Positions 10,076-21,373 of a stretch of 64,000 nucleotides of DNA are shown here, piece by piece. Position numbers and translations under genes: made by a program. The stretch's first letter is position 1. The number at the start of each line of letters is the position of its first letter. The notes beneath the pieces are model-generated. The model had not been told where the DNA came from and searched no databases. It was given only the letters and a program-made list of their open reading frames with translations. The DNA is from Planococcus rifietoensis (lineage in GTDB: Bacteria > Bacillota > Bacilli > Bacillales_A > Planococcaceae). The stretch covers positions 1,320,501 to 1,384,500 of the forward strand of contig NZ_CP013659.2 of NCBI RefSeq assembly GCF_001465795.2, written 5' to 3'.

Positions 10076-10104
10076 TTGATTTATTTTGTAAGCGCTTTTA
10101 TAAT
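10076..10104 (+). promoter_or_regulatory. PTS operon promoter with overlapping cre-like site
   Basis: TTGATT (10076-10081), a 17-base spacer and a perfect TATAAT (10099-10104). A cre-like palindrome TGTAAGCGCTTTTA (10087-10100) overlaps the spacer and matches TGWNANCGNTNWCA at all but one fixed position, so CcpA repression by preferred sugars is likely. The frame of the next gene is open through here, but a promoter in this place argues that translation starts further down. Confidence 0.7.
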
Positions 10105-10114
10105 GTTTTTAATA

Positions 10115-10141
10115 ACATTTGTGCTGGTTAAGAACAAATGT
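10115..10141 (+). promoter_or_regulatory. Operator-like inverted repeat, copy 1 (PTS operon)
   Basis: ACATTTGT, 11 bases, ACAAATGT: a perfect 8-bp inverted repeat starting 11 bases after the -10 box, followed by AAAAAA. The same arms with the same 11-base spacing occur at the E1alpha promoter (14441-14467). The likely binder is the SorC regulator encoded at the end of the cluster. Confidence 0.65.
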
Positions 10142-10165
10142 AAAAAAGAGTGGAGGGGATTTGTT

Positions 10166-10552
10166 TTGTGGGGATGGTTTATCGCTTTGTTTGCAGGGAT
10201 ATGGATCCTTCAAATTTTGATGACAAAAGTCCAATTGAAAAATTACCAAGCTACATTAAAGAAAATGAGCAACCGGCCTTCAGGATATTTAGGGGTAGGC
10301 ATACAGAAACAAAAAATGGGGATAGGCGTAATCGCTATCGTGGTAACCAATGAAGAAGGCTCATTGATCGAGAGCCAACTCATGAAAGGCGTGACGGTGT
10401 TCAGCCGGTTTGAAGCCTTCCCTAAATACAATGGGTTGGATATAGAATCGTTAAAAGAAAAACTGGACGAAGATACCGACGGCCAGGCTTTTAAAATGGC
10501 AATTGAAAAAATTGAAGCGCAAATGAGCAAAAAGACAAATCTAGCAGTATAA
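10166..10552 (+). CDS. gutM: Glucitol operon activator-like protein GutM
   Basis: A membrane-anchored accessory protein found in glucitol-type PTS operons. The N-terminal helix (WGWFIALFAGIWILQILMTK) is followed by a soluble domain with the family pattern NRPSGYLGVGIQKQKMGIGVI and a C-terminal helix. Start TTG at 10166 is chosen because GGAGGGG lies seven bases upstream and because promoter and operator signals occupy 10076-10141; an in-frame TTG at 10076 has no ribosome site. First gene of a five-gene operon with short gaps. GutM is an activator in enterobacteria; its role in Firmicutes is less clear. Confidence 0.8.
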   Translation: MWGWFIALFAGIWILQILMTKVQLKNYQATLKKMSNRPSGYLGVGIQKQKMGIGVIAIVVTNEEGSLIESQLMKGVTVFSRFEAFPKYNGLDIESLKEKLDEDTDGQAFKMAIEKIEAQMSKKTNLAV

Positions 10553-10564
10553 GGAGGAATAAGG

Positions 10565-11092
10565 ATGGATTTTTTAGTATCGCTCGCTGAAGGCTTTATC
10601 GGCATGTTCCAAGCAGGTGCAGATACATTTACAGGGCTTGTGACAGGGATTATTCCATTACTGATCGTCTTGATCACAGCAATCAATGCATTGATCCGGT
10701 TGATCGGTGAAGAGCGCATCAATCGTTTGGCCGCAAGAAGCACCAAAAATATTATTTTGCGCTATACGATCTTCCCGGTTCTAGCAGTCTTCTTTTTAAC
10801 AAACCCAATGGCTTATACATTCGGTAAGTTTTTGCCGGAAAAACAAAAGCCGGCTTTCTATGATTCCGCTGTATCATTTGTGCATCCGATCACCGGACTA
10901 TTCCCGCACGCAAACCCTGCCGAGCTGTTCGTCTATCTTGGAATCGCAGCAGGTATCACGGAATTGGGGCTATCGTTGGGGCCTTTGGCGATCCGTTTCT
11001 TCTTAGTGGGCGTCATTGTCATCCTGATTCGTGGAATCGTCACGGAATTCATTACGATCCGCATGATGAAATCTAAAGGCATGGAAGTCTAA
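10565..11092 (+). CDS. srlA: PTS glucitol/sorbitol-type transporter EIIC component
   Basis: A 175-residue membrane subunit with several helices and the family N-terminal pattern (LAEGFIGMFQAGADTFTGLV) and TGLFPHANPAELFVYLGIA. Together with the EIIBC protein it forms the channel that imports a polyol while phosphorylating it. The ribosome site AAGGAGG and a 12-base gap after gutM show tight coupling. The gut family is named for glucitol but also takes other linear polyols; the gene context here (no sorbitol-6-phosphate dehydrogenase) points to another substrate. Confidence 0.92.
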   Translation: MDFLVSLAEGFIGMFQAGADTFTGLVTGIIPLLIVLITAINALIRLIGEERINRLAARSTKNIILRYTIFPVLAVFFLTNPMAYTFGKFLPEKQKPAFYDSAVSFVHPITGLFPHANPAELFVYLGIAAGITELGLSLGPLAIRFFLVGVIVILIRGIVTEFITIRMMKSKGMEV

Positions 11093-11132
11093 TAGGTTAT
11101 AGAGGCGCTTATTTGAAAAGGGGGCAAGAAAA

Positions 11133-12188
11133 ATGGCAGACAATCAATCACCATTAAACTTCAAAGCGATTTCCGTGACCAAAGGCCGCGGAGGATGGGG
11201 AGGGCCGCTGACGATCCGGCCGAATGAAACACAGCGCTATATCGTATCGGTTACAGGCGGCGGGATTCACCCTGTGGCGGCGGAAATAGCGCGTTTGACG
11301 GGTGCTGAAGCGGTAGATGGATTCAAAGGTTCGTATCCGAAAGAAACGATGGCTTGCGTCATCATCGATTGCGGCGGAACAGCCCGCTGCGGCGTCTACC
11401 CGAAGATGAACATCCTCACGATCAACGTAAATCCGACATCACCATCGGGCCCATTGATGAAATTTATCAATGAAGAAAATTTCGTCTCTGGGGTAACGGT
11501 TTCAGATATTAGCACCGAAGCGGCACCATATGAGGACCAAAATGAAGTGAAAGATGCAGTCGATGAAACCATCGCGCCCGCTGTCCGCAAAACACCGCAG
11601 GAATTGAAAGAAGAAGCGAGAAGAAAAGTGGCCGCAAACAGCAGCGGCGAACCGCCTAAAAAGATGAATATCGTCGAACGGGTCGGACGCGGCGCAGGAA
11701 AAGTGGTCGGGGTTCTTTACCAGGCAGGACGCGAAACGATCGATCAGGTAATCAAAAATATTTTGCCTTTCATGGCGTTTGTCAGTATGTTAATCGGAAT
11801 CATAACCTTTACAGGCATCGGGGATTTGATCGCCAACTTCGTAACGCCGCTTGCCGGGAACTTGGTCGGCCTCCTTATTCTGTCCGTCATTTGTTCCTTG
11901 CCAATTCTATCGCCATTGCTCGGGCCAGGTGCAGTCATTGCCCAAGTCGTCGGTGTTCTGGTCGGTGTGGAAATCGGGCGCGGCAATATTCCGCCTGAAC
12001 TGGCACTTCCGGCATTGTTCGCCATCAACCCTCAAGTAGGCGCCGATTTTGTTCCAGTCGGTTTGACACTTGGAGAAGCAGAACCGGAAACGATCGAAGT
12101 CGGGGTTCCTGCAGTATTGATTTCCCGATTGATTACGGGGCCATTGGCTGTCGTCATCGCCTATTTACTGAGCTTTGGGATGTATTAA
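11133..12188 (+). CDS. srlE: PTS glucitol/sorbitol-type transporter EIIBC component
   Basis: 351 residues. The N-terminal EIIB domain has the motif [12 protein letters not shown] (Cys80 and Cys86), which holds the phosphocysteine of the gut family. A charged linker (residues about 150-190) leads to the membrane C-terminal domain with several helices ([17 protein letters not shown] onward). It takes the phosphoryl group from EIIA and transfers it to the incoming polyol. Normal length, no lesion. It follows the EIIC gene after 40 bases. Confidence 0.93.
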
Positions 12189-12212
12189 AAAAGAGATTGG
12201 GTGGAATAGCTT

Positions 12213-12578
12213 ATGATTACAAAATATGAAGCAAAAATTACGGAAATTGGCGAAGAAGTGGAATTATTCGCAGAAGAAAACATGATGGTCATTTTCAATA
12301 ACACCGTTCCGGAAGAACTGCGCTCATTCGCCGTCATCCATGAACAAGCGGATTTGCTTGAAGGGGTCGAAGCGGGCGATTTTTTAGAGATCAACGGGGA
12401 GCGGTTCGAGATTCTTTTCGTTGGCAGTAAAGTGAACGAAACGCTGCGGGACATTGGCCATTGCACAATCGCCTTTACAGGAGATTGCAATGCCGATTTA
12501 CCTGGCACGATGTGTGTAGAAAAGACGCCACTGCCGGAATTAGCGCTCGGAGCCGAAATACGGATATTAAAAGCCTGA
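12213..12578 (+). CDS. srlB: PTS glucitol/sorbitol-type transporter EIIA component
   Basis: A 121-residue soluble protein that carries phosphate from HPr to EIIB. Full family length, with the pattern MVIFNNTVPEELRSFAVIHEQ and NETLRDIGHCTIAFTGD; one of the two conserved His residues is the phosphorylation site. It follows the EIIBC gene after 24 bases and precedes the oxidoreductase gene after 19 bases, so the whole transporter and the enzyme are one transcript. Confidence 0.93.
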   Translation: MITKYEAKITEIGEEVELFAEENMMVIFNNTVPEELRSFAVIHEQADLLEGVEAGDFLEINGERFEILFVGSKVNETLRDIGHCTIAFTGDCNADLPGTMCVEKTPLPELALGAEIRILKA

Positions 12579-12597
12579 CTTATGAGGAGAGTGGACC

Positions 12598-13899
12598 ATG
12601 CTTGGCATCAATAGAAAGCTAGAAGAATTAGAGAAAGCAGGAACAATCATCAATGTGGGGCTTGTCGGTGCAGGCCAAATGGGCAGAGGGATGGTTTCTC
12701 AAATCGAAAACATGGCGGGCATGAGGGTCGTCCTCACGGCGGACATTCAACTGGATAATGTCGTCCATGCTTATGTAAAAGCTGGCGTGGCGGATGTGGA
12801 CATTGTCCAAACCAATTCGGCCGAAGAGGCAGCTGAAGCGATCCGTTCAGGAAAAGTGGCAGCCACGACTGACGCGCGCTTGGTGACATCTTCAACAGAA
12901 GTGGATGTCGTCGTCGATGCAACGGGGGTGCCAGACATCGGCGCGAAAATTGCCTGGGATGCCATTCTGAACAAAAAGCATATCGTCATGCTCAATGTGG
13001 AGGCTGACGTCACAATCGGTCCTTTGTTGATGAAAATGGCGGATGCCAGCGGCGTTGTCTATACAGGGACCGCAGGCGACGAACCCGGTGCCATTATGGA
13101 ATTATATGATTTTGCGGACGCCCTTGGCTTTGAAGTGGTAGCGCTCGGAAAAGGAAAAAACAACCCGCTGAACTTAGCGGCGAATCCCGATACCGCAGCA
13201 GAGGAAGCGGCACGAAAAGGTGCCAGTGCGAAAATGCTGGCATCGTTCCAGGACGGCACGAAAACCATGGTTGAAATGACGGCTGTCGCCAACGCCACAG
13301 GATTCCTACCCGATACGCCGGGAATGCACGGATTTGTCAGTGACGTGAAAGGGCTACCGGAAATCTTTAAATTGAAAGAAGACGGCGGGCAAGTCAGCAA
13401 CAAGAAAATCGTGGAATACATCAACGGCGTAGCACCAGGCGTATTTGCGATCATTGCCTCGGAAAAAGAAGAAGTCAATCACGAAATGCAATACTTGAGC
13501 ATGGGAGCAGGGCCGAATTACGTGCTCTATCGCCCGTATCATTTGACCAGCTTGGAGACGCCGATTTCCATTGCCCGCGCGTATATTTACAATGAAGCGA
13601 CGATTGCCCCATGGAAAGGGCTTCAAGCAGAAACGGTCACGATTGCCAAAACCGACTTGGAAGAAGGACAGTTCTTAGATAGCATCGGCGGGTTTACGGT
13701 TTATGGCCGTATTCTCTCAGCCGCGGATGCAAAGGAAAAGGATGCCTTGCCTTTGGGCTTGGTCGACCGCCATGTCCAATTAAAGCGTTCCATTCAAAAA
13801 GGTGAAATCATTTCCTATAGCGATGTAGTGCAAACCAAGGAGTCGACCATTTGGCGCTTGCGGCGCATGCAGGATGAAACCTTCGGAGGAAATCTTTAA
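12598..13899 (+). CDS. COG4091 oxidoreductase with SAF domain, DRL (DXR-II)-like
   Basis: 433 residues. An N-terminal Rossmann fold (GLVGAGQMG, 21-29) is followed by a catalytic domain and a C-terminal SAF-like domain (about 345-420). Segments such as HIVMLNVEADVTIGP, AGDEPGAIMELYDFADALG, GKGKNNPLN, KTMVEMTAVANATG and YRPYHLTSLE agree with what I remember of the Brucella DXP-reductoisomerase-like protein DRL, which makes methylerythritol phosphate from deoxyxylulose phosphate. Many annotations call this family homoserine dehydrogenase-like. As the last gene of a PTS operon it should act on the phosphorylated polyol, probably oxidising and isomerising it. Reaction direction and substrate are inferred. 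Confidence 0.8.
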   Translation: MLGINRKLEELEKAGTIINVGLVGAGQMGRGMVSQIENMAGMRVVLTADIQLDNVVHAYVKAGVADVDIVQTNSAEEAAEAIRSGKVAATTDARLVTSSTEVDVVVDATGVPDIGAKIAWDAILNKKHIVMLNVEADVTIGPLLMKMADASGVVYTGTAGDEPGAIMELYDFADALGFEVVALGKGKNNPLNLAANPDTAAEEAARKGASAKMLASFQDGTKTMVEMTAVANATGFLPDTPGMHGFVSDVKGLPEIFKLKEDGGQVSNKKIVEYINGVAPGVFAIIASEKEEVNHEMQYLSMGAGPNYVLYRPYHLTSLETPISIARAYIYNEATIAPWKGLQAETVTIAKTDLEEGQFLDSIGGFTVYGRILSAADAKEKDALPLGLVDRHVQLKRSIQKGEIISYSDVVQTKESTIWRLRRMQDETFGGNL

Positions 13900-14010
13900 C
13901 TAAGCATTTAGTGGAGATGTGCCGCTCAGTTTATTGCTTCGACGCTACTAGACAAATGTTCCAATCATCGTGGAGACATGGTAACTATCTTAACGAGAAG
14001 GTGTTCTAGT

Positions 14011-14349
14011 ATGAAAGTGAAAAAGATGGAAGCTGGTCTATACTGTGTCCATTGCAAAGAAGACGTAAATCACGAAATCACCTATATTAACGACGACATT
14101 AAAAGAATTCGCTGCACGGAATGCAACCGTACAATAGAAATGAACATGGACCTCAAAAAAGAGTTCTACAAGGAATTGTACGAACGCATTTCCACGAAGC
14201 CAACACGCGTCACAAATGAATACCGGGAAGATCTCAGCCACCTATTGCTATCGATTCCTTTTCGCGCCATCAAAAAGCCGTATCGTGTGCTGAAAGAAGT
14301 TCATTCTTCCCGACGAGTCATCAATACGTACAAGCCAAAGAAAAAATAA
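14011..14349 (+). CDS. Small zinc-ribbon-like protein, function unknown
   Basis: 112 residues. The N-terminal half has two CxxC pairs (YCVHCKEDV and RCTECNRTI, about 25 residues apart), as in a zinc ribbon, followed by a basic helical C-terminus ending in KPKKK. The ATG at 14011 has GAGAAGGTG eight bases before it; an in-frame ATG at 13978 has no ribosome site. It sits between the PTS operon and the dehydrogenase operon and ends in its own terminator. A half operator (ACAAATGT, 13952-13959) lies upstream, but the other arm is missing. Role in the pathway, if any, is unknown. Confidence 0.7.
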   Translation: MKVKKMEAGLYCVHCKEDVNHEITYINDDIKRIRCTECNRTIEMNMDLKKEFYKELYERISTKPTRVTNEYREDLSHLLLSIPFRAIKKPYRVLKEVHSSRRVINTYKPKKK

Positions 14350-14361
14350 CGCGCCAGGGAC

Positions 14362-14403
14362 AAAGGGTCAAACTTCTGAAACACAGGGAAGTCTGGCCCT
14401 TTT
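14362..14403 (+). terminator. Terminator after the zinc-ribbon gene
   Basis: AAAGGGTCAAACTTC pairs imperfectly with GAAGTCTGGCCCTTT and ends in TTT, just before the next promoter. Confidence 0.75.
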
Positions 14404-14407
14404 GTTC

Positions 14408-14436
14408 TTGACGAATAGTCAGAAAAGACTTATAAT
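14408..14436 (+). promoter_or_regulatory. SigA-type promoter of the acetoin-dehydrogenase-like operon
   Basis: TTGACG, a 17-base spacer and TATAAT: one of the best promoter matches in the window, 52 bases before the E1alpha start. Confidence 0.85.
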
Positions 14437-14440
14437 TTTT

Positions 14441-14467
14441 ACATATGTTACGAGTAAGTACAAATGT
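14441..14467 (+). promoter_or_regulatory. Operator-like inverted repeat, copy 2 (dehydrogenase operon)
   Basis: ACATATGT, 11 bases, ACAAATGT, followed by AAAAAA. One base in the left arm differs from copy 1; the right arm, the spacing and the A-rich flank are the same. It covers the expected transcription start, which fits repression by a SorC-type regulator until its sugar-phosphate ligand appears. Confidence 0.65.
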
Positions 14468-14487
14468 AAAAAATAGGAGGAATACAA

Positions 14488-15471
14488 ATGACATCACTGA
14501 TCAATTTGCCAGCGCATCTAAAAAGAGATGATTTAACGGATTTGCTGAAACAAATGTGGCAGATTCGATTTTTTGAAGAGAAAGTCGATGAATTCTTCGC
14601 CAAAGGCATGATCCACGGTACGACGCATTTAGCGGTAGGACAAGAAGCTTCCGCGGTAGGTTCGATCGCCGTTTTAGAAGAACGCGACAAGATTACGAGT
14701 ACGCACCGTGGCCATGGGCACTGCATTGCCAAAGGAGCGGAAGTGAACCGAATGATGGCTGAACTGTTTGGGCGCACGACAGGATATTGCAAAGGCAAGG
14801 GGGGCTCCATGCACATTGCCGATGTCGAAAAAGGCAACCTGGGTGCCAATGGAATTGTCGGAGGCGGGTTTGCGATTGCGGCTGGCGCGGCTTTGACATC
14901 CCAAATGAAAAATGAAGGATATGTCGTACTATGTTTCTTTGGCGATGGAGCCTCCAACGAAGGCAGTTTCCATGAAGCGCTGAACTTGGCATCCATTTGG
15001 AAGTTACCGGTTGTCTTCGTTTGTGAAAACAACCAGTATGGCATGTCCGGCCCTGCTAAAGAAATGATGAACATTGAAGACGTGGCAGCGCGTGCCGAGT
15101 CCTATGGAATTCCAGGGAAAGTTGTAGACGGCAATGATGTGTTCGATGTCATGAATGGCGTTAGCGAAGCAGTGGACCGCGCACGAACTGGACAAGGCCC
15201 ATCGATTGTCGAAGCAAAAACCTATCGCTGGAAAGGGCATTCAAAGAGCGATGCCAAAAAATACCGGACGCGTGAAGAAGAACAGAAGTGGCGGGCAAAA
15301 GATCCGATTGCACGTCTCCGGGATGCATTGATTCAGGAAGGATTACTGACAGAGGAAGGTGCGACTGAAATCAAAGCTGCAGCGAAAAAAGAAATTGAGG
15401 ATTCGGTCGAGTTTTCAAAACAAAGCCCAATGCCGACAATCGATGATTTGATGGAAGACATTTATGCATAA
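14488..15471 (+). CDS. acoA: TPP-dependent dehydrogenase E1 alpha subunit (acetoin dehydrogenase type)
   Basis: 327 residues. The TPP-binding motif runs from GDGASNEG (152-159) to ENN (180-182). THRGHGHCI (72-80) and GGSMHIAD are the conserved phosphosubstrate and TPP loops of the AcoA/PdhA group. The length and the ALNLASIWKLPVVFV stretch are closest to acetoin dehydrogenase E1alpha. In the known reaction acetoin plus CoA gives acetyl-CoA and acetaldehyde. Here the operator shared with a PTS/DRL operon suggests a phosphorylated acetoin-like ketose instead; the symbol is by similarity only. Ribosome site AGGAGG; short spacing to the beta-subunit gene. Confidence 0.9.
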   Translation: MTSLINLPAHLKRDDLTDLLKQMWQIRFFEEKVDEFFAKGMIHGTTHLAVGQEASAVGSIAVLEERDKITSTHRGHGHCIAKGAEVNRMMAELFGRTTGYCKGKGGSMHIADVEKGNLGANGIVGGGFAIAAGAALTSQMKNEGYVVLCFFGDGASNEGSFHEALNLASIWKLPVVFVCENNQYGMSGPAKEMMNIEDVAARAESYGIPGKVVDGNDVFDVMNGVSEAVDRARTGQGPSIVEAKTYRWKGHSKSDAKKYRTREEEQKWRAKDPIARLRDALIQEGLLTEEGATEIKAAAKKEIEDSVEFSKQSPMPTIDDLMEDIYA

Positions 15472-15495
15472 AGAGCAGCAAAGGAGCGGAAGACT

Positions 15496-16479
15496 ATGAG
15501 GGAACTGACTTATTTGGAAGCCGTTAGAGAAGCGATGAGCCAAGAGATGCGGCAAAACGAAGACGTGTTTATTCTGGGAGAGGATATCGGTGTTTACGGC
15601 GGGGCGTTTGGCGTCACTCGCGGAATGATTGAAGAGTTTGGCCCAGAGCGTATCCGCAATACCCCGATTTCTGAAGCGGCCATCTCGGGCACAGCGGTAG
15701 GAGCCGCGTTGACGGGCATGCGCCCGATCTTGGAGCTTCAATTTTCCGATTTCATGACCATCGCGATGGACAATATGGTCAACCAAGCAGCCAAAATCCG
15801 CTATATGTACGGCGGGAAAGGAAAAGTACCGATGGTTTTGCGCACACCGGCAGGATCTGGCACCGGCGCAGCGGCCCAGCATTCTCAAAGCCTGGAAGCG
15901 TGGATGGCCCATGTTCCTGGCTTGAAAGTCGTCCAGCCATCCACCGCATACGACGCCAAAGGGCTCCTGAAAGCGGCAATTGATGAAGACAACCCGGTCA
16001 TTTTCTACGAACATAAACTATGCTATAAAACAAAATCGGATGTACCCGAAGAATTGTATTCCATTCCCCTGGGCCAAGCAGATATTAAACGGCAAGGCAG
16101 CGATGTAACGATAGTCGCTACAGCGATCATGGTCCATAAATCATTGGAGGCGGCTTTAGAGCTCGAAAAAGAAGGAATCAGTGTCGAAGTGATCGATCCG
16201 CGCACGCTCGTGCCATTGGATACCGACACCATCATCGAGTCTGTCAAGAAGACAAGCCGCTTGGTGGTCGTGCATGAAGCGGTCAAGCGCGGCGGTTTTG
16301 GAGGAGAGATTGCCAGTGTGATCGCCGAAAGCGAAGCATTCGATTATTTGGATGCCCCGATTAAGCGCCTAGGCGGCAAGGCCGTCCCGATTCCGTACAA
16401 TCCTGAACTTGAAAAATCCGCCATCCCTAGTGTCGAGGATATCGTGGCAGCTGTTAAAGAAACATTAAACCACCGGTAA
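15496..16479 (+). CDS. acoB: TPP-dependent dehydrogenase E1 beta subunit (acetoin dehydrogenase type)
   Basis: 327 residues with the beta-subunit signatures [54 protein letters not shown] (catalytic His) and [16 protein letters not shown]. It pairs with the alpha subunit to form the alpha2beta2 E1 that cleaves the substrate and transfers the two-carbon unit to lipoate on E2. The ATG follows AAAGGAGCGG. Length is typical and no catalytic residue appears missing. Confidence 0.92.
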
Positions 16480-16496
16480 GAAGGAGGAGCGGGCTG

Positions 16497-17870
16497 ATGG
16501 CCAAAGAAATATTCATGCCAAAACTGAGCAGCACGATGCAGGTAGGAACACTTTTGCAATGGTATAAAAACGAAGGCGATTCCGTTGATGTCGGAGAGCC
16601 GTTATTTGAAATCATGACGGACAAAATCAATATCGAGGTCGAATCCTACGAAGAAGGCATCCTTCTGAAAAAGTATTTTGAAGAAGACGACGAAGTGCCT
16701 ATTAATCACGTGGTCGGCTATATCGGTGAAGCTGGCGAAAAAGTACCGGATTCACCGCCTGGGGAATCGGGTGCTGCCAAAGAGCAAGAGGATGTAAGTG
16801 ATTCACGGGAAGCTCAAGTAGAAGATTTAACGGAGCAGGGCATCAGCGAAACGGTTACTGAACATATTAGCGATGATTCACATGGAGAAAATGCTGCTGC
16901 TGAAAAACCTCGCGCGACACCTGCAGCTAGAAGAGTGGCGAGAGAAGAAAACATCGCATTATCGGATGTGTCAGGTTCTGGGCCGAACGGGCGAATTCAT
17001 CAAAACGATGTAATGGAGTTTGCTGCATCCAAAACTTCCTTTAAAGCGACACCGCTTGCACAAAAAGTAGCAACTGCTGAAGGCGTCGACTTACAAGCAA
17101 TAAAAGGCTCAGGCACAAACGGTAAAATTTATCGCGCCGATGTGGAAAATGCCAAACAAGCATCGCCTGCTGCTGGAACAGGCGGCAAACGAATTAAAAT
17201 GGAAGGCATTCGAAAAGTCGTGGCGCAGCGCACATTGCAAAGTAAAACGACTGCTCCCCATGTGACATTGACAACCGAAGTGGATATGTCCGAGGCCATC
17301 AACCTGCGCAAACAATTGCTTGGAATGATTGAACAGCAGACTGGATTCCGCATTTCGTATACGGAAATCATTATGAAAGCTGTGGCATTTTCTTTGAAAC
17401 AGCATCCGAATGTCAATGTATCGTTAGAAGGCAATGAAATTGTCTATAAAGAAGACATCAATCTGGGGCTTGCAGTAGCCGCCGATAATGGCCTGGTGGT
17501 ACCTGTGGTTAAACATGTCGATCAAAAAGGCTTGTCTTCTCTAACAGCTGAATGCAAACGCCTCGGCAAGGCAGCTCGTGACAATCAGGTCAAACCGGAT
17601 GAAATGTCGGGCGGGACATTTACCGTCAGCAATCTGGGAATGTATGCCATCGATGCTTTCACGCCGGTCATCAATCAGCCGGAATCAGCTATTCTTGGCG
17701 TCGGACGCATCAATGAAAAACCAGTAGGCGTTGACGGTGCCATCGAACTACGGCCAATGATGGTCCTGAGTTTGTCGTTTGATCACCGAGTGATCGATGG
17801 CGCCCCTGCCGCAGCCTTTTTGACGGAATTGAAAGAAGCGCTCGAACAACCGGTTATATTATTGGTGTAA
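16497..17870 (+). CDS. acoC: Dihydrolipoamide acyltransferase E2 with two E3-binding domains
   Basis: 457 residues. Lipoyl domain 1-78 with the lipoylated Lys in TDKINIE (K43). An acidic linker (about 85-135) leads to two peripheral subunit-binding domains in tandem (RATPAARRVAREENI, 139-175; KATPLAQKVATAEGV, 183-219), then the catalytic acyltransferase core with FDHRVIDGAPAAAF (His430, Asp434). It accepts the acetyl group from E1 and gives it to CoA. One lipoyl domain and a doubled E3-binding domain is an unusual but known arrangement in acetoin-type E2. AAGGAGGAG precedes the ATG. Confidence 0.92.
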   Translation: MAKEIFMPKLSSTMQVGTLLQWYKNEGDSVDVGEPLFEIMTDKINIEVESYEEGILLKKYFEEDDEVPINHVVGYIGEAGEKVPDSPPGESGAAKEQEDVSDSREAQVEDLTEQGISETVTEHISDDSHGENAAAEKPRATPAARRVAREENIALSDVSGSGPNGRIHQNDVMEFAASKTSFKATPLAQKVATAEGVDLQAIKGSGTNGKIYRADVENAKQASPAAGTGGKRIKMEGIRKVVAQRTLQSKTTAPHVTLTTEVDMSEAINLRKQLLGMIEQQTGFRISYTEIIMKAVAFSLKQHPNVNVSLEGNEIVYKEDINLGLAVAADNGLVVPVVKHVDQKGLSSLTAECKRLGKAARDNQVKPDEMSGGTFTVSNLGMYAIDAFTPVINQPESAILGVGRINEKPVGVDGAIELRPMMVLSLSFDHRVIDGAPAAAFLTELKEALEQPVILLV

Positions 17871-17883
17871 GGAGTAGATGCTA

Positions 17884-19266
17884 GTGAATAGTTACGAAGT
17901 GGTGGTACTTGGCGGAGGGCCGGGAGGTTATGTGGCGGCGATACGCGCGGCGAAACTCGGAAAAACAGTGGCGCTGATCGAAGTACGCGAACTCGGCGGC
18001 ACGTGTTTGAATCGAGGCTGCATCCCATCTAAAACTTTATTGAGGCATGCGGAAGTGATTGAAACAATCGAAAAAGCCAAAAGCTGGGGCATTGAAACCG
18101 GGGACATGACTTTTTCTCTTTCTAAAATGCTCGCCCGCAAAGACGCGGTCATTAAGCAATTGAGAACTGGCATTGACCATCTATTGAAGCAAGGAAAAAT
18201 CGATGTCTATAATGGCGTCGGGAAAGTTCAAGCGGCCGGGAAAATCACGGTTCAGCTGGCTGACAAAGAGGAAGTCCTCCAAGGAGAAAAAATTATCCTG
18301 GCAACCGGTTCACGTCCGCTCGTTCCGCCAATCGATGGCATTGAAGAAGCGGCATATTTCACGAGTGATACTATATTCGACATCGAGAAAATTCCGAAAT
18401 CGATGGTGATTATAGGCGGCGGCATCATCGGAGTGGAACTCGCATGCATTTTTGCCAGCTTGAACGTGCCGGTAAGCATCGTGGAAATGAACGACCGGAT
18501 TGTGCCGAGCGAAGAACCGGAAGCCTCTAAAGCGCTTGCGAGATCTTTGAAAAAGAAAAAGATTAGCATCATGACGAATACCAAAGTGACCAAAATTGAA
18601 CAGCAAGGTGCCCGTCAGCTCATTCATATAGAAACCGCTCAAGGAAAAGCAGAAACATTGGATACCGAAGCGATTTTGATGGCTGTCGGCAGAGCGCCCA
18701 ATACTTCGGCCTTTGCGGAATTGAAGCTCGAGATGGATGGTCCTTTTGTGAAAGTGGATAGCGCCATGCAAACGAGCGACCCTACCATTTATGCGGTTGG
18801 TGACGTGACGGGTGGCTGGCAGCTTGCCCATGTCGCGAGTGCGGAAGGGGTCGTAGCAGCTGCCAATGCAGCGGGTGGAAAACAGACCGTTGATTACCGG
18901 ATGGTTCCGCGCTGTGTCTACACCAGTCCGGAAATTGCCAGTGTCGGTTTAACAGAAGCCGAGGCGAAGCAGCAAGGAATCGACTACAAGGTCGTGCGAG
19001 TTGACCATGCAGGAAACGGCAGGGCGTTAGCGCAGGATGAGAAGGAAGGGTTCACGAAGCTGATTGCTGGAACACAATATGGAGAAATTCTAGGTGTTCT
19101 CATGGTCGGTCCGCATGTAACGGAAATAATCGCGGAACCTTCTGCGTTTATTCATTTGGAAGGAACGGTGGACGAACTGGCTTCGATGATTCATGCCCAC
19201 CCGACTATTACCGAAAGCTTATACGAAGCCGCCGCGTCTTGGATTGGAAAAGGCGTTCACCATTAA
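17884..19266 (+). CDS. acoL: Dihydrolipoyl dehydrogenase E3
   Basis: A flavoprotein of about 460 residues that reoxidises E2 dihydrolipoamide with NAD. FAD site VVLGGGPGGYVAAIRAA, redox disulfide GGTCLNRGCIPSK, NAD site IGGGIIGVELACIF, second FAD motif YAVGDVTGGWQLAHVA and C-terminal HAHPTITES with the catalytic His-Glu pair. There is no N-terminal lipoyl domain. The GTG at 17884, nine bases after AAGGAG, is preferred over an in-frame ATG only three bases from it. Being in the operon, it probably serves this complex. Confidence 0.93.
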   Translation: MNSYEVVVLGGGPGGYVAAIRAAKLGKTVALIEVRELGGTCLNRGCIPSKTLLRHAEVIETIEKAKSWGIETGDMTFSLSKMLARKDAVIKQLRTGIDHLLKQGKIDVYNGVGKVQAAGKITVQLADKEEVLQGEKIILATGSRPLVPPIDGIEEAAYFTSDTIFDIEKIPKSMVIIGGGIIGVELACIFASLNVPVSIVEMNDRIVPSEEPEASKALARSLKKKKISIMTNTKVTKIEQQGARQLIHIETAQGKAETLDTEAILMAVGRAPNTSAFAELKLEMDGPFVKVDSAMQTSDPTIYAVGDVTGGWQLAHVASAEGVVAAANAAGGKQTVDYRMVPRCVYTSPEIASVGLTEAEAKQQGIDYKVVRVDHAGNGRALAQDEKEGFTKLIAGTQYGEILGVLMVGPHVTEIIAEPSAFIHLEGTVDELASMIHAHPTITESLYEAAASWIGKGVHH

Positions 19267-19294
19267 GTGCGAGGCAGTCGAAAGAAATGGAAAT

Positions 19295-19318
19295 CATTTG
19301 TCATTCAGCCGACAAATG
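19295..19318 (+). promoter_or_regulatory. Inverted repeat upstream of the SorC gene, possible autoregulatory site
   Basis: CATTTGTC, 8 bases, GACAAATG, a perfect inverted repeat. It shares the CATTTGT/ACAAATG arms of the two operators above, with 10 bases rather than 11 between them, so it may be a weaker site for the same regulator. A second small hairpin (AAAGCGGTT/AACCGCCTTT, 19391-19413) lies between it and the start codon. Confidence 0.45.
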
Positions 19319-19444
19319 GGTGGACACATATAGTATAGTTGTTCAGAAGAGTGAAAACTGGCAAATACAATCAGTTGCCACAAACAAATGAAAGCGGTTT
19401 ACTAACCGCCTTTAAGTTTATTTAAAAGAGAAGGTGCAGTGACA

Positions 19445-20380
19445 ATGAATTGGGACGAGCGCAGGCAAATCGTGAAAGTAGCGACATTGTATTATTTTGA
19501 AGGGCTCACGCAGGCAGAAATCGCCAAAAAAGTGGGTGTGTCCCGTCCGTTAATCTCCAAACTGCTGAACAAGGCACGGGAAAATGGGATTGTCGAAATT
19601 TACATTAGAGATGAAAATGCGCACACCGTAGAACTGGAAAACCGTCTTGAAAAGAAGTACGGATTGAAAGAAGCCATTGTCGTGCCGGCAGCTGGGCGGG
19701 ATGCTGAAATGGTCAAGCAGTCACTAGGGAAAGCCGCTTCATTCTACGTCTCGAAAAATATGAAAGGCGTCAAGAAACTGGGGATCTCGTGGGGGCTTAC
19801 CTTGGCGAAATTTGTGCAGGAATATCCGTATGAGCAGCACCAGCAGTTGAAAATCATTCCACTGGTCGGCGGCATGGGGACCAAGCTCGTGGAGATCCAT
19901 TCCAATTTGCTGGCGTATCAATTGGCGCAAAAGATGAATACGACCTGTTCATATTTATACGCTCCGGCGATGGTAGAGAACGCGGAATTGAAAAAGCGCT
20001 TGATCGAGTCGGAAGATATTGCCCTGGTCCTTGAAGAAGGACGCAATGTGGATATGGCAGTAGTCGGAATCGGAAACCCGTTTGAACAATCCACGATGAC
20101 CACCATGGATTATTTGAAAGCCGAAAGTTTGGTCTCCTTAAAGAAAGCTGGAGCGGTCGGGGATATCGGTTCACGTTTTTACAACCAGGCCGGAAACCAG
20201 ATCGACCACCCCTTGAATGACTTGGTCATCGGGCTTGATATCGACGAATACAAACGCATACCCGAAGTAATCGGGATTGTAGAAGGCACCCATAAAGCGG
20301 AAAGCATTAAAGCCGCTTTAAGAGGCGGATATTTTGATGTACTAGTCATCGATGATACGACCGCAGCCTTAATCTTATAA
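19445..20380 (+). CDS. SorC-family (DeoR-like) sugar-responsive regulator
   Basis: About 312 residues. The N-terminal helix-turn-helix (LYYFEGLTQAEIAKKVGVSR, PLISKLLNKARENGIVEI) is followed by a SorC sugar-phosphate-binding domain (KKLGISWGLTLAKFV, IPLVGGMGT, VGIGNPF, VIGLDIDEYKRIPEVIGIVEG, KAESIKAALRGGYFDVLVID). Members bind phosphorylated sugars and usually control the neighbouring catabolic operon. Being last in the cluster, with ACATTTGT-type sites upstream of the PTS and E1 operons, it is the best candidate to control both. The ATG at 19445 gives a better distance to GAGAAGG than the GTG at 19439. Confidence 0.88.
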   Translation: MNWDERRQIVKVATLYYFEGLTQAEIAKKVGVSRPLISKLLNKARENGIVEIYIRDENAHTVELENRLEKKYGLKEAIVVPAAGRDAEMVKQSLGKAASFYVSKNMKGVKKLGISWGLTLAKFVQEYPYEQHQQLKIIPLVGGMGTKLVEIHSNLLAYQLAQKMNTTCSYLYAPAMVENAELKKRLIESEDIALVLEEGRNVDMAVVGIGNPFEQSTMTTMDYLKAESLVSLKKAGAVGDIGSRFYNQAGNQIDHPLNDLVIGLDIDEYKRIPEVIGIVEGTHKAESIKAALRGGYFDVLVIDDTTAALIL

Positions 20381-20430: not shown

Positions 20431-20548
20431 GTGTTTAATTATCAGCAAGCGAAAAATTGAAAAATTAGACCTATGAATGAATTTAAATTGAAAATTCTAG
20501 GATATACTAATTTTAACTATATAACCGAAAATAGGAAGGATGAAGAAT

Positions 20549-21373
20549 ATGAATAAGTTTATTTGCAATACGTGTGGCGTCCAAACCGAGAGCGCTGAGT
20601 CAGCACCAGAGCATTGTTCAATCTGTACAGAAAAACGGCAATACGTCAGCGTTAAAGGACAAAGTTGGACGACTTTGGAAGAGATGGTTCAATCCGCTGC
20701 TTATCAGAATGAGATTACGTCAGAAGAACAAGGGCTCTTAAGTATCACGACGGTGCCAAGTTTTGCGATTGGTCAAACAGCGTATTTGGTTCAGGGGGAG
20801 AACTTCAATATCCTGTGGGATTGTCTAACATATCTCGACGCTCCAACTATTGAAAAAATAAAAGCTCTGGGAGGAATCGATGCCATTGCCTTGTCCCATC
20901 CCCATTATTATTCGACTCAAGTGGAATGGGCTGAAACCTTCGATGCGGCAATCTATATTCACGAAGACGATAAGCAATGGGTAACCCGGCCAAGCGATCG
21001 CATTATCTTTTGGTCAGGCGAAACGCTCAAAGTTGCGGAAGGGTTCACGCTGCATCGGATCGGTGGTCATTTCAAAGGTGCAGCCATTCTGGAATGGAAA
21101 AATGGAGATGACGGCAAAGGCGTATTACTGACAGGCGATATTGTCCGCGTCGTTGCAGACCGCGAGTGGGTCAGTTTTATGTATAGCTATCCGAACTTCA
21201 TTCCACTTCCTGCGTCCACTGTCGAAAGAATGGCGGAACAGTTAGATGAAATCCGTTTTGATCGCGTGTATGATGCGTTTCATCGAATCGTGTTGACGGA
21301 CGCGGGAGCAGCCGTGCAAAGATCAGCTAAACGGTATGTGGATGCGTTGAATGGTGTGCTGTTCAAGACCTGA
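20549..21373 (+). CDS. MBL-fold hydrolase-like protein with N-terminal zinc ribbon
   Basis: 274 residues. It starts with a rubredoxin-like ribbon (ICNTCGVQ ... HCSICTEKRQYV), then a metallo-beta-lactamase fold: NILWDCLTYLD, AIALSHPHYYST, HRIGGHFKGAAILEW, VLLTGDIVRV and a final DAFHRIVL. The metal motif HxHxDH is reduced to SHPHYYST, so it may bind one metal or a different set. The ATG nine bases after GGAAGG is preferred over the one adjoining it. Monocistronic, just outside the PTS/dehydrogenase cluster; a link to it is not indicated. Confidence 0.75.
   Translation: MNKFICNTCGVQTESAESAPEHCSICTEKRQYVSVKGQSWTTLEEMVQSAAYQNEITSEEQGLLSITTVPSFAIGQTAYLVQGENFNILWDCLTYLDAPTIEKIKALGGIDAIALSHPHYYSTQVEWAETFDAAIYIHEDDKQWVTRPSDRIIFWSGETLKVAEGFTLHRIGGHFKGAAILEWKNGDDGKGVLLTGDIVRVVADREWVSFMYSYPNFIPLPASTVERMAEQLDEIRFDRVYDAFHRIVLTDAGAAVQRSAKRYVDALNGVLFKT

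Follow-up and report, generated by a model that had tools for sequence, protein, structure and literature searches.

A Planococcus gene cluster joining a DXR-II-type reductoisomerase to a dehydrogenase complex, with a probable role in 2-C-methyl-D-erythritol catabolism

The cluster at positions 10076–20380 of the window, by which we mean the whole analysed stretch of 64,000 nt of Planococcus rifietoensis DNA (GCF_001465795.2, NZ_CP013659.2, positions 1,320,501–1,384,500, forward strand), comprises a glucitol (gut)-type PTS, a DRL homologue, the E1α, E1β, E2, and E3 components of a dehydrogenase complex, and a SorC regulator. We consider it likely that these genes serve inducible catabolism of 2-C-methyl-D-erythritol, leading from methylerythritol through methylerythritol 4-phosphate (MEP) and deoxyxylulose 5-phosphate (DXP) to acetyl-CoA and glyceraldehyde 3-phosphate. 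According to the proposed scheme, the gut PTS would be the phosphorylating partner that converts methylerythritol to MEP, DRL would convert MEP to DXP, i.e., the first committed step of the MEP pathway in reverse, and the E1-E2-E3 complex would split the C2–C3 bond of DXP by means of TPP and lipoate, yielding acetyl-CoA, NADH, and glyceraldehyde 3-phosphate. The DXR equilibrium favours MEP, which speaks against this scheme; the complex, being irreversible, would draw the reaction of DRL in its unfavourable direction. SorC may sense a phosphorylated intermediate, and SorC together with CcpA would control the operons. The sequence analysis below shows which genes are present and how they co-occur, the operator common to both operons, the conservation of residues in DRL, and the clades that set E1 and the PTS apart; we infer the substrate, the direction of the reaction, the cleavage of DXP, and the ligand of the regulator. 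A search limited to open-access papers found no methylerythritol catabolic pathway.

The earlier note, made from the sequence alone, had described a glucitol-type PTS, a COG4091 oxidoreductase resembling Brucella DRL, an acetoin-dehydrogenase-like complex, and a SorC regulator, and profile and motif checks found all the named genes in place, in the same direction (plus strand), and with intact motifs. All the glucitol PTS families were matched: GutM-like activator (10166–10552; PF06923, 82 bits), EIIC (10565–11092; PF03608, 269.8 bits), EIIBC (11133–12188; PF03612 and PF07663), and EIIA (12213–12578; PF03829, 123.4 bits). The GutM open reading frame was listed from 10076, and comparison with relatives revised its start to TTG 10166, which is the most likely one because 10076–10104 reads as a promoter. 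The regulator (19439–20380), of the SorC/DeoR type with an HTH and a sugar-binding domain, matches PF04198 with 272 bits. Between the DRL and E1α genes lies a small CxxC-CxxC zinc-ribbon protein (13978–14349, likely start ATG 14011), for which no Pfam family scored above its cut-off; its four cysteines are invariant in 14 aligned sequences, and it recurs in such clusters, with 68 homologous ORFs among the fetched loci (sequences, not independent genomes).

The PTS resembles that of sorbitol operons in part. It has the gut-type EIIA, EIIBC, and EIIC together with GutM, and it lacks both a sorbitol-type EIIC and the dehydrogenase partner: in the tree, the DRL-linked EIIC group branches, by topology, apart from the sorbitol-type EIIC of 14 loci without DRL, and neither the ORFs nor a profile search revealed a sorbitol-6-phosphate dehydrogenase within the cluster. 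DRL and E1 are retained with different phosphorylating partners, namely the gut PTS or, in three alphaproteobacterial loci, an ABC transporter with a PfkB-type kinase. The MFS and FGGY-kinase genes of Priestia/Metabacillus were also considered as a PTS replacement; gut-type PTS genes lie near them in L073 and L157, and a fragment in L076, and the FGGY kinase is an addition to the PTS with no swap.

The DRL gene (12598–13899) encodes a DXR-II-type NAD(P)-dependent reductoisomerase that scores 227.2 bits against DRL_cat PF21135 (cut-off 27), and phmmer matches it to the Brucella structures 3upl/3upy at E 7e-102 (7.2e-102 for 3upl), upholding the resemblance first noted. Its residues E168, F172, K185, K187, T223, R312, and Y314 correspond to Brucella E174, F178, K191, K193, T229, R320, and Y322, of which K191, K193, and T229 bind the substrate or fosmidomycin and E174, F178, R320, and Y322 lie at the interface (PMC3847144). 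K191, K193, and T229 (Brucella numbering) are retained in 131 of 131 non-DLO sequences (fetched sequences, not independent genomes). The window DRL is 78% identical to the B. halodurans protein named BH0774, which we take to be the B. halodurans entry listed under DXR-II in PMC3847144. In a tree with only three DLO-like sequences, two of which it did not separate, the Brucella DRL falls within the DRLs that Alphaproteobacteria encode in DRL-E1-E2 operons (support 1.0). We predict that the enzyme interconverts MEP and DXP and that it runs toward DXP here. Against this reading, four sites linked in PMC3847144 to functional divergence differ between the Brucella protein and the window DRL (205, D to T; 282, a gap; 310, I to M; 351, V to Q).

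The complex is encoded by genes for E1α (14488–15471, TPP motif), E1β (15496–16479, QHSQS motif), the E2 dihydrolipoyl acyltransferase (16497–17870, lipoyl Lys and HRVIDG), and the E3 dihydrolipoyl dehydrogenase (17878–19266; TIGR01350, 547.9 bits, cut-off 408.8; CxxxxC). In NCBIfam, E1α scores as a PDH-like protein (388.5 bits, cut-off 393.85); the description "acetoin-dehydrogenase-like" holds only in the wide sense. The E1α and E1β of DRL-linked loci are each monophyletic across two phyla, with members from Bacilli and Alphaproteobacteria (support 0.97 and 0.89, respectively), apart from the acoABCL-type operon L212 and from PDH/BKDH-type E1; L212, with its sigma-54 activator confirmed and with L187 and L188 beside it, served as the AcoAB reference, and the PDH/BKDH labels are based on similarity and gene order. 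The clade signature is H43-G-T45 in E1α and S84, T123, and G124 in E1β. Where the AcoA type (3 of 3) and human PDH have Phe, E1α has T45, and where the AcoB type has Phe and Arg/Asn, E1β has T123-G124; these substitutions may make room for a larger, polar substrate. The alignment showed no unique phosphate-binding Arg or Lys among the signature sites. An E1β arginine matching the DXS residues that bind glyceraldehyde 3-phosphate was also sought by hand alignment; what stands at the aligned positions is shared with E1 of the PDH and BKDH types, and nothing DXP-specific was found. There is published precedent for the chemistry: purified PDH makes 1-deoxy-D-xylulose, and aceE mutants yield DXP in vivo (PMC3424233), and the title of a 1986 paper cited there names acetoin dehydrogenase too. 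DXP is a candidate substrate of the window complex.

The two operons each have a promoter, TTGATT-17-TATAAT (10/12) at 10076–10104 before the PTS-DRL operon and TTGACG-17-TATAAT (11/12) at 14408–14436 before the E1-E2-E3 operon; it should be noted that the promoter scan as a whole gave no excess over shuffles (18 sites vs. 15.3). The first promoter overlaps a CcpA-like (cre) box, TGTAAGCGCTTTTA (10087–10100), and of the 65 GutM genes in the named loci, 49 have a cre-like core nearby (a raw count). A 33-bp operator, TTTACAAATGTAA-N7-GAACAAATGTAAA, is found before GutM (10112–10144, 20/26 motif positions) and before E1α (14438–14470, 23/26), and no separate site elsewhere in the 64-kb window scores above 18, in accordance with the shared operator proposed earlier. 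The motif was chosen by eye from the upstream stretches of relatives, and thus its position in these relatives is partly given by construction. In 2.74 Mb of fetched relatives, 229 sites reach at least 20, compared with 0 in one locally shuffled copy; 76 of them precede E1α and 72 precede GutM (fetched sequences, not independent genomes). Two pairs of unlinked operons also share the operator, L204/L149 in genome G110 and L205/L147 in genome G143 (23/26 positions each). In genome G014, the operator is present at the E1 operon, but the DRL operon scores 19 at best, which counts against the pathway.

Lack of co-occurrence of the PTS, the COG4091 enzyme, and the AcoABCL-like complex had been set beforehand as grounds for refuting the proposal, which withstood this check. 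In an even set of 398 Bacilli genomes, DRL was found in 39, EII-GUT in 55, the E1β clade (at least 72% identity) in 38, and all three in 35 (Fisher p = 1.6e-31 for DRL and PTS, 3.3e-42 for DRL and the E1 clade). Of 11 genomes from the window's own genus, 3 have all three and the other 8 have none of them. The PTS-DRL and E1 operons lie far apart in some of the 35 genomes. Within about 9 kb of the 39 sampled DRL loci besides the window, the PTS was found in 34 and the E1 pair in 25, which are lower bounds because some fetched stretches end at contig ends (e.g., L126, L128, L137, L138, L144). In hand-picked alphaproteobacterial plasmid loci, DRL, E1α, E1β, and E2 are consecutive in 9 of 9. Some observations weaken the pathway reading. 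Neither partner occurs in four of the DRL genomes, three of which have divergent (31–41%) DRLs. Members of the E1 clade are also found where DRL is absent, in G066 and G160 (with SDR, VOC, and MFS-type genes) and in G073 (beside a galactitol-type PTS), and adding sequences extends the clade to G386 and, for E1α, to a Lactobacillales E1.

The neighbours of related clusters bear on the identity of the substrate. The named loci are the best 80 of 236 matches to the window DRL and are therefore biased to close kin; some genomes, such as the one that contains L065, L140, and L207, occur both among them and in the 398-genome sample, and counts of sites and sequences therefore refer to fetched sequences, not independent genomes. 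A GlpD-like and Zn-ADH module in 12 of these 80 loci, and a HAD phosphatase with a glycerol-1-phosphate dehydrogenase in L103, would fit another triose phosphate, such as might arise if the substrate were another 2-C-methyl-tetritol (e.g., 2-C-methylthreitol or the L form) or a mixture, converted to a stereoisomeric 1-deoxypentulose 5-phosphate and cleaved by the complex. The conservation of DRL would fit MEP or a stereoisomer alike. A ribulose-phosphate 3-epimerase gene adjoining E1 in four Treponema loci points the same way; however, its genome has no other canonical Rpe, or none that ranks higher, so that it is probably a housekeeping gene that we set aside as a chemical clue, and its adjacency may be chance. 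Since the characterised Brucella DRL acts on D-series DXP/MEP (PMC3847144), we regard a different methyl-tetritol as unlikely, though it is the best of the alternatives. A large ORF beside SorC in L103 proved to be a CoA-enzyme activase (DUF2229), probably unrelated.

Operons with E1 of the same clade adjoin a galactitol-type PTS in L204–L207 and L221, with MDR and SDR dehydrogenases in L206 and L207, and E1 of this clade may thus act on other 1-deoxyketose phosphates. This arrangement offers a simpler route to an acyloin phosphate and favours a reading in which DRL is a plain polyol-phosphate dehydrogenase that oxidizes a 1-deoxypentitol phosphate to the 1-deoxyketose phosphate without rearrangement, after which the complex splits this product. 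Against it, every named DXP/fosmidomycin-binding residue of Brucella DRL is conserved, and complementation has shown 11 DRLs from the DXR-II clade to be functional (PMC3847144). We consider this reading still less probable than the preceding one.

It is very improbable that DRL is a second biosynthetic DXR and the complex an ordinary acetoin or pyruvate dehydrogenase placed nearby by chance. PMC3847144 does propose that strains with DXR-I have DXR-II for gene dosage or to tolerate fosmidomycin, and DXR-I was not found in two of the 39 DRL genomes searched, G004 and G371, where DRL may also serve biosynthesis. However, the other 37 have DXR-I, as does the window's own genome, so that biosynthesis is not a likely role of DRL; the PTS, the catabolite-type promoter, the SorC gene, the shared operator, and the near-perfect co-occurrence also argue against it, as does genome G014, which holds both AcoAB and the distinct DRL-type E1. 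Equally slight is the chance that DRL acts on a hydroxymethyl analogue and turns apiitol phosphate into xylulose 5-phosphate, which belongs to the pentose-phosphate pathway. In its favour, the fetched stretch of Ligilactobacillus L158 combines DRL and a gut-PTS with genes for transketolase and fructose-6-phosphate aldolase and contains no E1, and the EIIC of this PTS groups next to the sorbitol-type set. Against it, xylulose 5-phosphate would make a complex that forms acyl-CoA superfluous, yet in Bacilli the E1 clade goes along with DRL, and an E1β of 60–66% identity occurs in 6 of 7 anaerobe genomes; this reading could be confined to the Lactobacillales branch.

A broader form of the methylerythritol proposal, for and against which the case is evenly balanced, is that DXR-II was catabolic at its root, with the pathway present in Bacilli, Alphaproteobacteria, Clostridia, and Spirochaetes, that E1-E2-E3 is a new DXP dehydrogenase, and that biosynthetic lineages recruited DXR-II from this pathway. 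Finegoldia magna has proven DXR-II activity, yet neither the MEP nor the MVA pathway (PMC3847144), as expected of a catabolic enzyme. That 2013 study left the patchy distribution of DXR-II and its activity in species without an isoprenoid pathway unexplained, and in 2026 DXR-II still had no defining pattern except overrepresentation in certain pathogens (PMC13001223). If true, a catabolic role would settle this puzzle, as recruitment would explain the patchiness; central metabolism would gain a direct cleavage of a sugar phosphate to acetyl-CoA, and many genes annotated as sorbitol PTS, homoserine dehydrogenase, or pyruvate dehydrogenase would be named correctly. Methylerythritol is made by plants, and 2-methyltetrols arise from isoprene aerosol; the pathway would be a sink for both.

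Taken together, the cluster resembles four known systems, each in part. With DXR-II/DRL of Brucella abortus (3UPL/3UPY), it shares full-length homology, PF21135, and the seven binding and interface residues; the known role of that enzyme is biosynthetic, whereas the window gene lies among PTS and dehydrogenase-complex genes in a genome that also has DXR-I. The order E1α, E1β, E2, E3 is that of AcoABCL, whose acyloin-cleaving chemistry we propose for the window complex, but the window E1 forms a separate clade with HGT where AcoABCL has PGF, and SorC takes the place of the adjoining sigma-54 activator AcoR (as in L212). GutM, EIIC, EIIBC, and EIIA are as in the glucitol/sorbitol operon (gutM-srlA-srlE-srlB), which differs in its sorbitol-6-phosphate dehydrogenase and in the branching of EIIC. 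Finally, polyol and tetritol catabolism through a kinase and a dehydrogenase is known, e.g., for erythritol, and has phosphorylation, oxidation, and entry as triose phosphate in common with the proposed route, but it uses a dehydrogenase and an isomerase or aldolase where the window has a reductoisomerase and a complex of the alpha-keto-acid dehydrogenase type.

The genes concerned lie within 10076–20380 of the window, in a 3.5-Mb genome assembled as a single contig, and form two operons of the same direction: a PTS-DRL operon (GutM, EIIC, EIIBC, EIIA, DRL and a small zinc-ribbon gene) and an operon for the TPP/lipoate dehydrogenase complex (E1alpha, E1beta, E2, E3 and the regulator SorC). The co-directional set of gut-type PTS, DXR-II-type reductoisomerase homologue (DRL), complex and SorC described in the earlier note is thereby found entire, and all four complex subunits keep their catalytic motifs intact. 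The genome holds one DRL, whose nearest named relatives are from Planococcus (97% identity), and one ordinary DXP reductoisomerase (DXR-I). No second complex of the DRL-linked kind was found in it, since the closest E1beta paralogues are just 47% and 44% identical and are of the PDH/BKDH type by gene order. The zinc-ribbon product (13978–14349), a small protein bearing two CxxC pairs, is found repeatedly in such clusters and also accompanies unlinked E1 operons (loci L204–L206). Directly after SorC (20540–21373) stands an MBL-fold protein with N-terminal CxxC pairs and no sign of pathway membership.

One even draw of 398 Bacilli genomes was used alike for DRL (PF21135; 39 genomes), gut EIIC (PF03608; 55) and E1beta at 72% identity or more (38; below that, one genome at 66% and 30 at 55–59%). 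All three occur together in 35 genomes, so that the co-occurrence of PTS, COG4091 and AcoABCL-like genes, for which a survey had been proposed, exceeds chance (Fisher p = 1.6e-31 for DRL with PTS, 3.3e-42 for DRL with E1). Of 11 genomes in the window's genus, 3 carry the complete trio and the other 8 carry no member of it. DRL stands without partners in G138, G180, G262 and G346, with three of these DRLs just 31–41% identical and G180 having DRL alone; E1 without DRL is seen in G066, G160 and G073. Linkage is close: within about 9 kb of the 39 sampled DRL genes there are at least 34 with EIIC, at least 25 with the E1 pair and at least 25 with both, and among the best 80 of 236 DRL matches (the named loci) the fetched stretches hold EIIC in at least 67 and the E1 pair in at least 56. 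Seven Bacilli with DRL have no complete E1 pair nearby; six of them carry E1beta at 82–90%, and in the seventh, a 1.4-Mb assembly, the best is only 52%.

A promoter-like site precedes each operon in the window (10/12 positions matched for PTS-DRL, 11/12 for E1), the scan overall giving 18 sites against 15.3 in shuffles. Directly after each lies the operator TTTACAAATGTAA-N7-GAACAAATGTAAA (10112 and 14438), a motif derived by reading the relatives' sequences. Of the 229 sites that it gives at 20 or more of 26 positions across 2.74 Mb of fetched loci, 76 precede E1alpha and 72 precede GutM; one locally shuffled copy gives 0. In genomes G110 and G143 the E1 and PTS-DRL operons are far apart, yet the operator is found at both with 23/26 (L204/L149 and L205/L147), so the shared operator noticed earlier holds for unlinked operons as well. 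A weaker copy (20) precedes a galactitol-type PTS gene in L204, L205 and L206. The best score at the DRL operon of G014 (L122) is only 19, and none of 20 or more was seen in L127, L156, L168, L112 and L102. In the window, the promoter of the PTS operon and a CcpA-like box overlap; of 65 GutM genes in the named loci, 49 have a cre-like core close by.

Outside the Bacilli, 111 plasmid records matched DRL and 13 were fetched, including nine hand-chosen alphaproteobacterial ones, in all nine of which DRL, E1alpha, E1beta and E2 are consecutive (unannotated L163 included). Some alphaproteobacterial loci carry a gut-type PTS with a PEP-protein phosphotransferase; L161, L165 and L166 have an ABC transporter with a PfkB-type or 'sugar' kinase, PTS being absent from the fetched stretch. 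In Priestia, Metabacillus and Ectobacillus the neighbours of DRL include an FGGY kinase gene and one for an MFS protein, with gut-type PTS genes remaining near such clusters in L073 and L157, and an FGGY kinase and ABC transporter lie upstream of DRL in Treponema L107. These variants agree with DRL acting on a phosphorylated polyol. A lipoyl synthase gene stands beside the alphaproteobacterial complexes of L161 and L166 (and L203).

Among seven anaerobes with DRL and no nearby E1, six have an unlinked E1beta at 60–66% identity, and G401 has none such; their E1alpha shows the clade signature H43/T45 in 6/6. Support for a joint clade with the anaerobes is 0.873 for E1alpha and a poor 0.273 for E1beta. 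In larger trees the E1 clade also holds G386, G066 and G160, joined in the E1alpha tree by a Lactobacillales sequence (L184/L215); no DRL was found for any of these. A ribulose-phosphate 3-epimerase gene adjoins the E1 operon in four Treponema genomes (L241–L244), in each of which it is the best canonical Rpe or the only one.

The EIIC tree (midpoint root, without support values) sets DRL-linked transporters apart from the transporters at 14 loci lacking DRL, of which the one checked, L236, adjoins a short-chain dehydrogenase. Two loci depart from this split: Ligilactobacillus L158 lies next to the sorbitol-type branch, and L234, the end of a contig from a genome with DRL, groups with the DRL type. 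The L. salivarius plasmid locus (L158:7004-14578) holds DRL, gut-PTS, fructose-6-phosphate aldolase and transketolase without E1, and in Priestia endophytica (L073:13549-21282) a similar aldolase-transketolase-PTS set stands beside the DRL-kinase cluster; the aldolase could cleave DXP, or xylulose 5-phosphate may be the product. In Alkalibacter (L103:11398-13440; L102 alike by gene sizes) a HAD phosphatase gene and one resembling glycerol-1-phosphate dehydrogenase come after DRL. In 12 of the 80 named loci (L049–L055, L060, L061, L063, L066, L099; Pfam basis for L049 only) genes for a FAD dehydrogenase of GlpD-like type and for a Zn-alcohol dehydrogenase lie upstream of GutM, transcribed divergently to the PTS operon and with SorC genes on either side.

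A catabolic role for DRL is the likelier one, given that DXR-I is present in 37 of 39 DRL genomes; G004 and G371 lack it. Finegoldia magna, which has neither the MEP nor the MVA pathway, is reported to have DXR-II activity in a paper that leaves the patchy DXR-II distribution unexplained (PMC3847144); a 2026 text states that no defining pattern has emerged (PMC13001223). According to PMC3424233, pyruvate and glyceraldehyde are converted to 1-deoxy-D-xylulose by purified PDH, and DXP rises about 20-fold in aceE mutants; among its references is a 1986 title on how pyruvate and acetoin dehydrogenases form 1-deoxyketoses. A term search of PMC12052390 and PMC7657509 found nothing relevant here. The proposed E1 step would be this acyloin chemistry of PDH and acetoin dehydrogenase run in the cleaving direction. 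As far as sequence can tell, the proposed route from methylerythritol through MEP and DXP to acetyl-CoA and glyceraldehyde 3-phosphate survives the genome survey and is probably correct; the operators, the clades and the conserved residues back it independently.

The window DRL keeps all seven residues named for Brucella DRL in PMC3847144. Lys191, Lys193 and Thr229 are kept in 131/131 sequences outside the DLO classes and partly lost in three DLO-like sequences; Listeria-type DRLs vary at 174 in 2/15 and have Phe at 322 in 10/15. In the tree, the E1-linked group of alphaproteobacterial DRLs includes the Brucella sequence (support 1.0). The window DRL differs from Brucella DRL at several 'functional divergence' sites, which counts against full equivalence.

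DRL-linked E1alpha (46) and E1beta (47) of both phyla group together (support 0.97 and 0.89), separate from AcoAB-type and PDH/BKDH-type sequences. The label 'acetoin-dehydrogenase-like complex' fits the four subunits in a broad sense only, and the trees place this E1 apart from that of ordinary acetoin dehydrogenase. Some clusters have extra modules, and the E1 clade is also found in one or more other polyol-type clusters, so this E1 family may have a range wider than DXP. A galactitol-type PTS (EIIC-GAT) accompanies the E1-E2-E3-SorC operon in the E1 loci L204, L205, L206, L207 and L221, with L065, L067 and L140 belonging to the same observation (L065, L140 and L207 being one genome), which suggests a second polyol feeding the complex; L206 and L207 add MDR and SDR dehydrogenases. 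L219 and L220 (G066, G160) show a related variant, E1-E2 with SDR and VOC-family genes, DRL and PTS being absent from the stretch; L219 also holds E3 and an MFS transporter (Pfam), and L220 is assigned by a like order of gene sizes. The variant on a Fuscovulum plasmid (L199) has SDR and VOC genes and a fused E1alpha-beta, with no DRL or PTS in the stretch.

No specific phosphate-binding residue was found among the clade-marking E1 sites; the changes would agree with a larger, polar substrate. Where DRL-linked E1alpha has H43 and T45, human PDH has Arg and Phe, the latter lining the active site, and the AcoA type (L212, L187, L188) has Pro and Phe. The residues of the AcoB type at the sites of E1beta S84, T123 and G124 are Asn, Phe and either Arg or Asn. 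Besides a complex of the DRL-linked kind, G014 carries a second, acoABCL-like operon that includes a sigma-54 activator.
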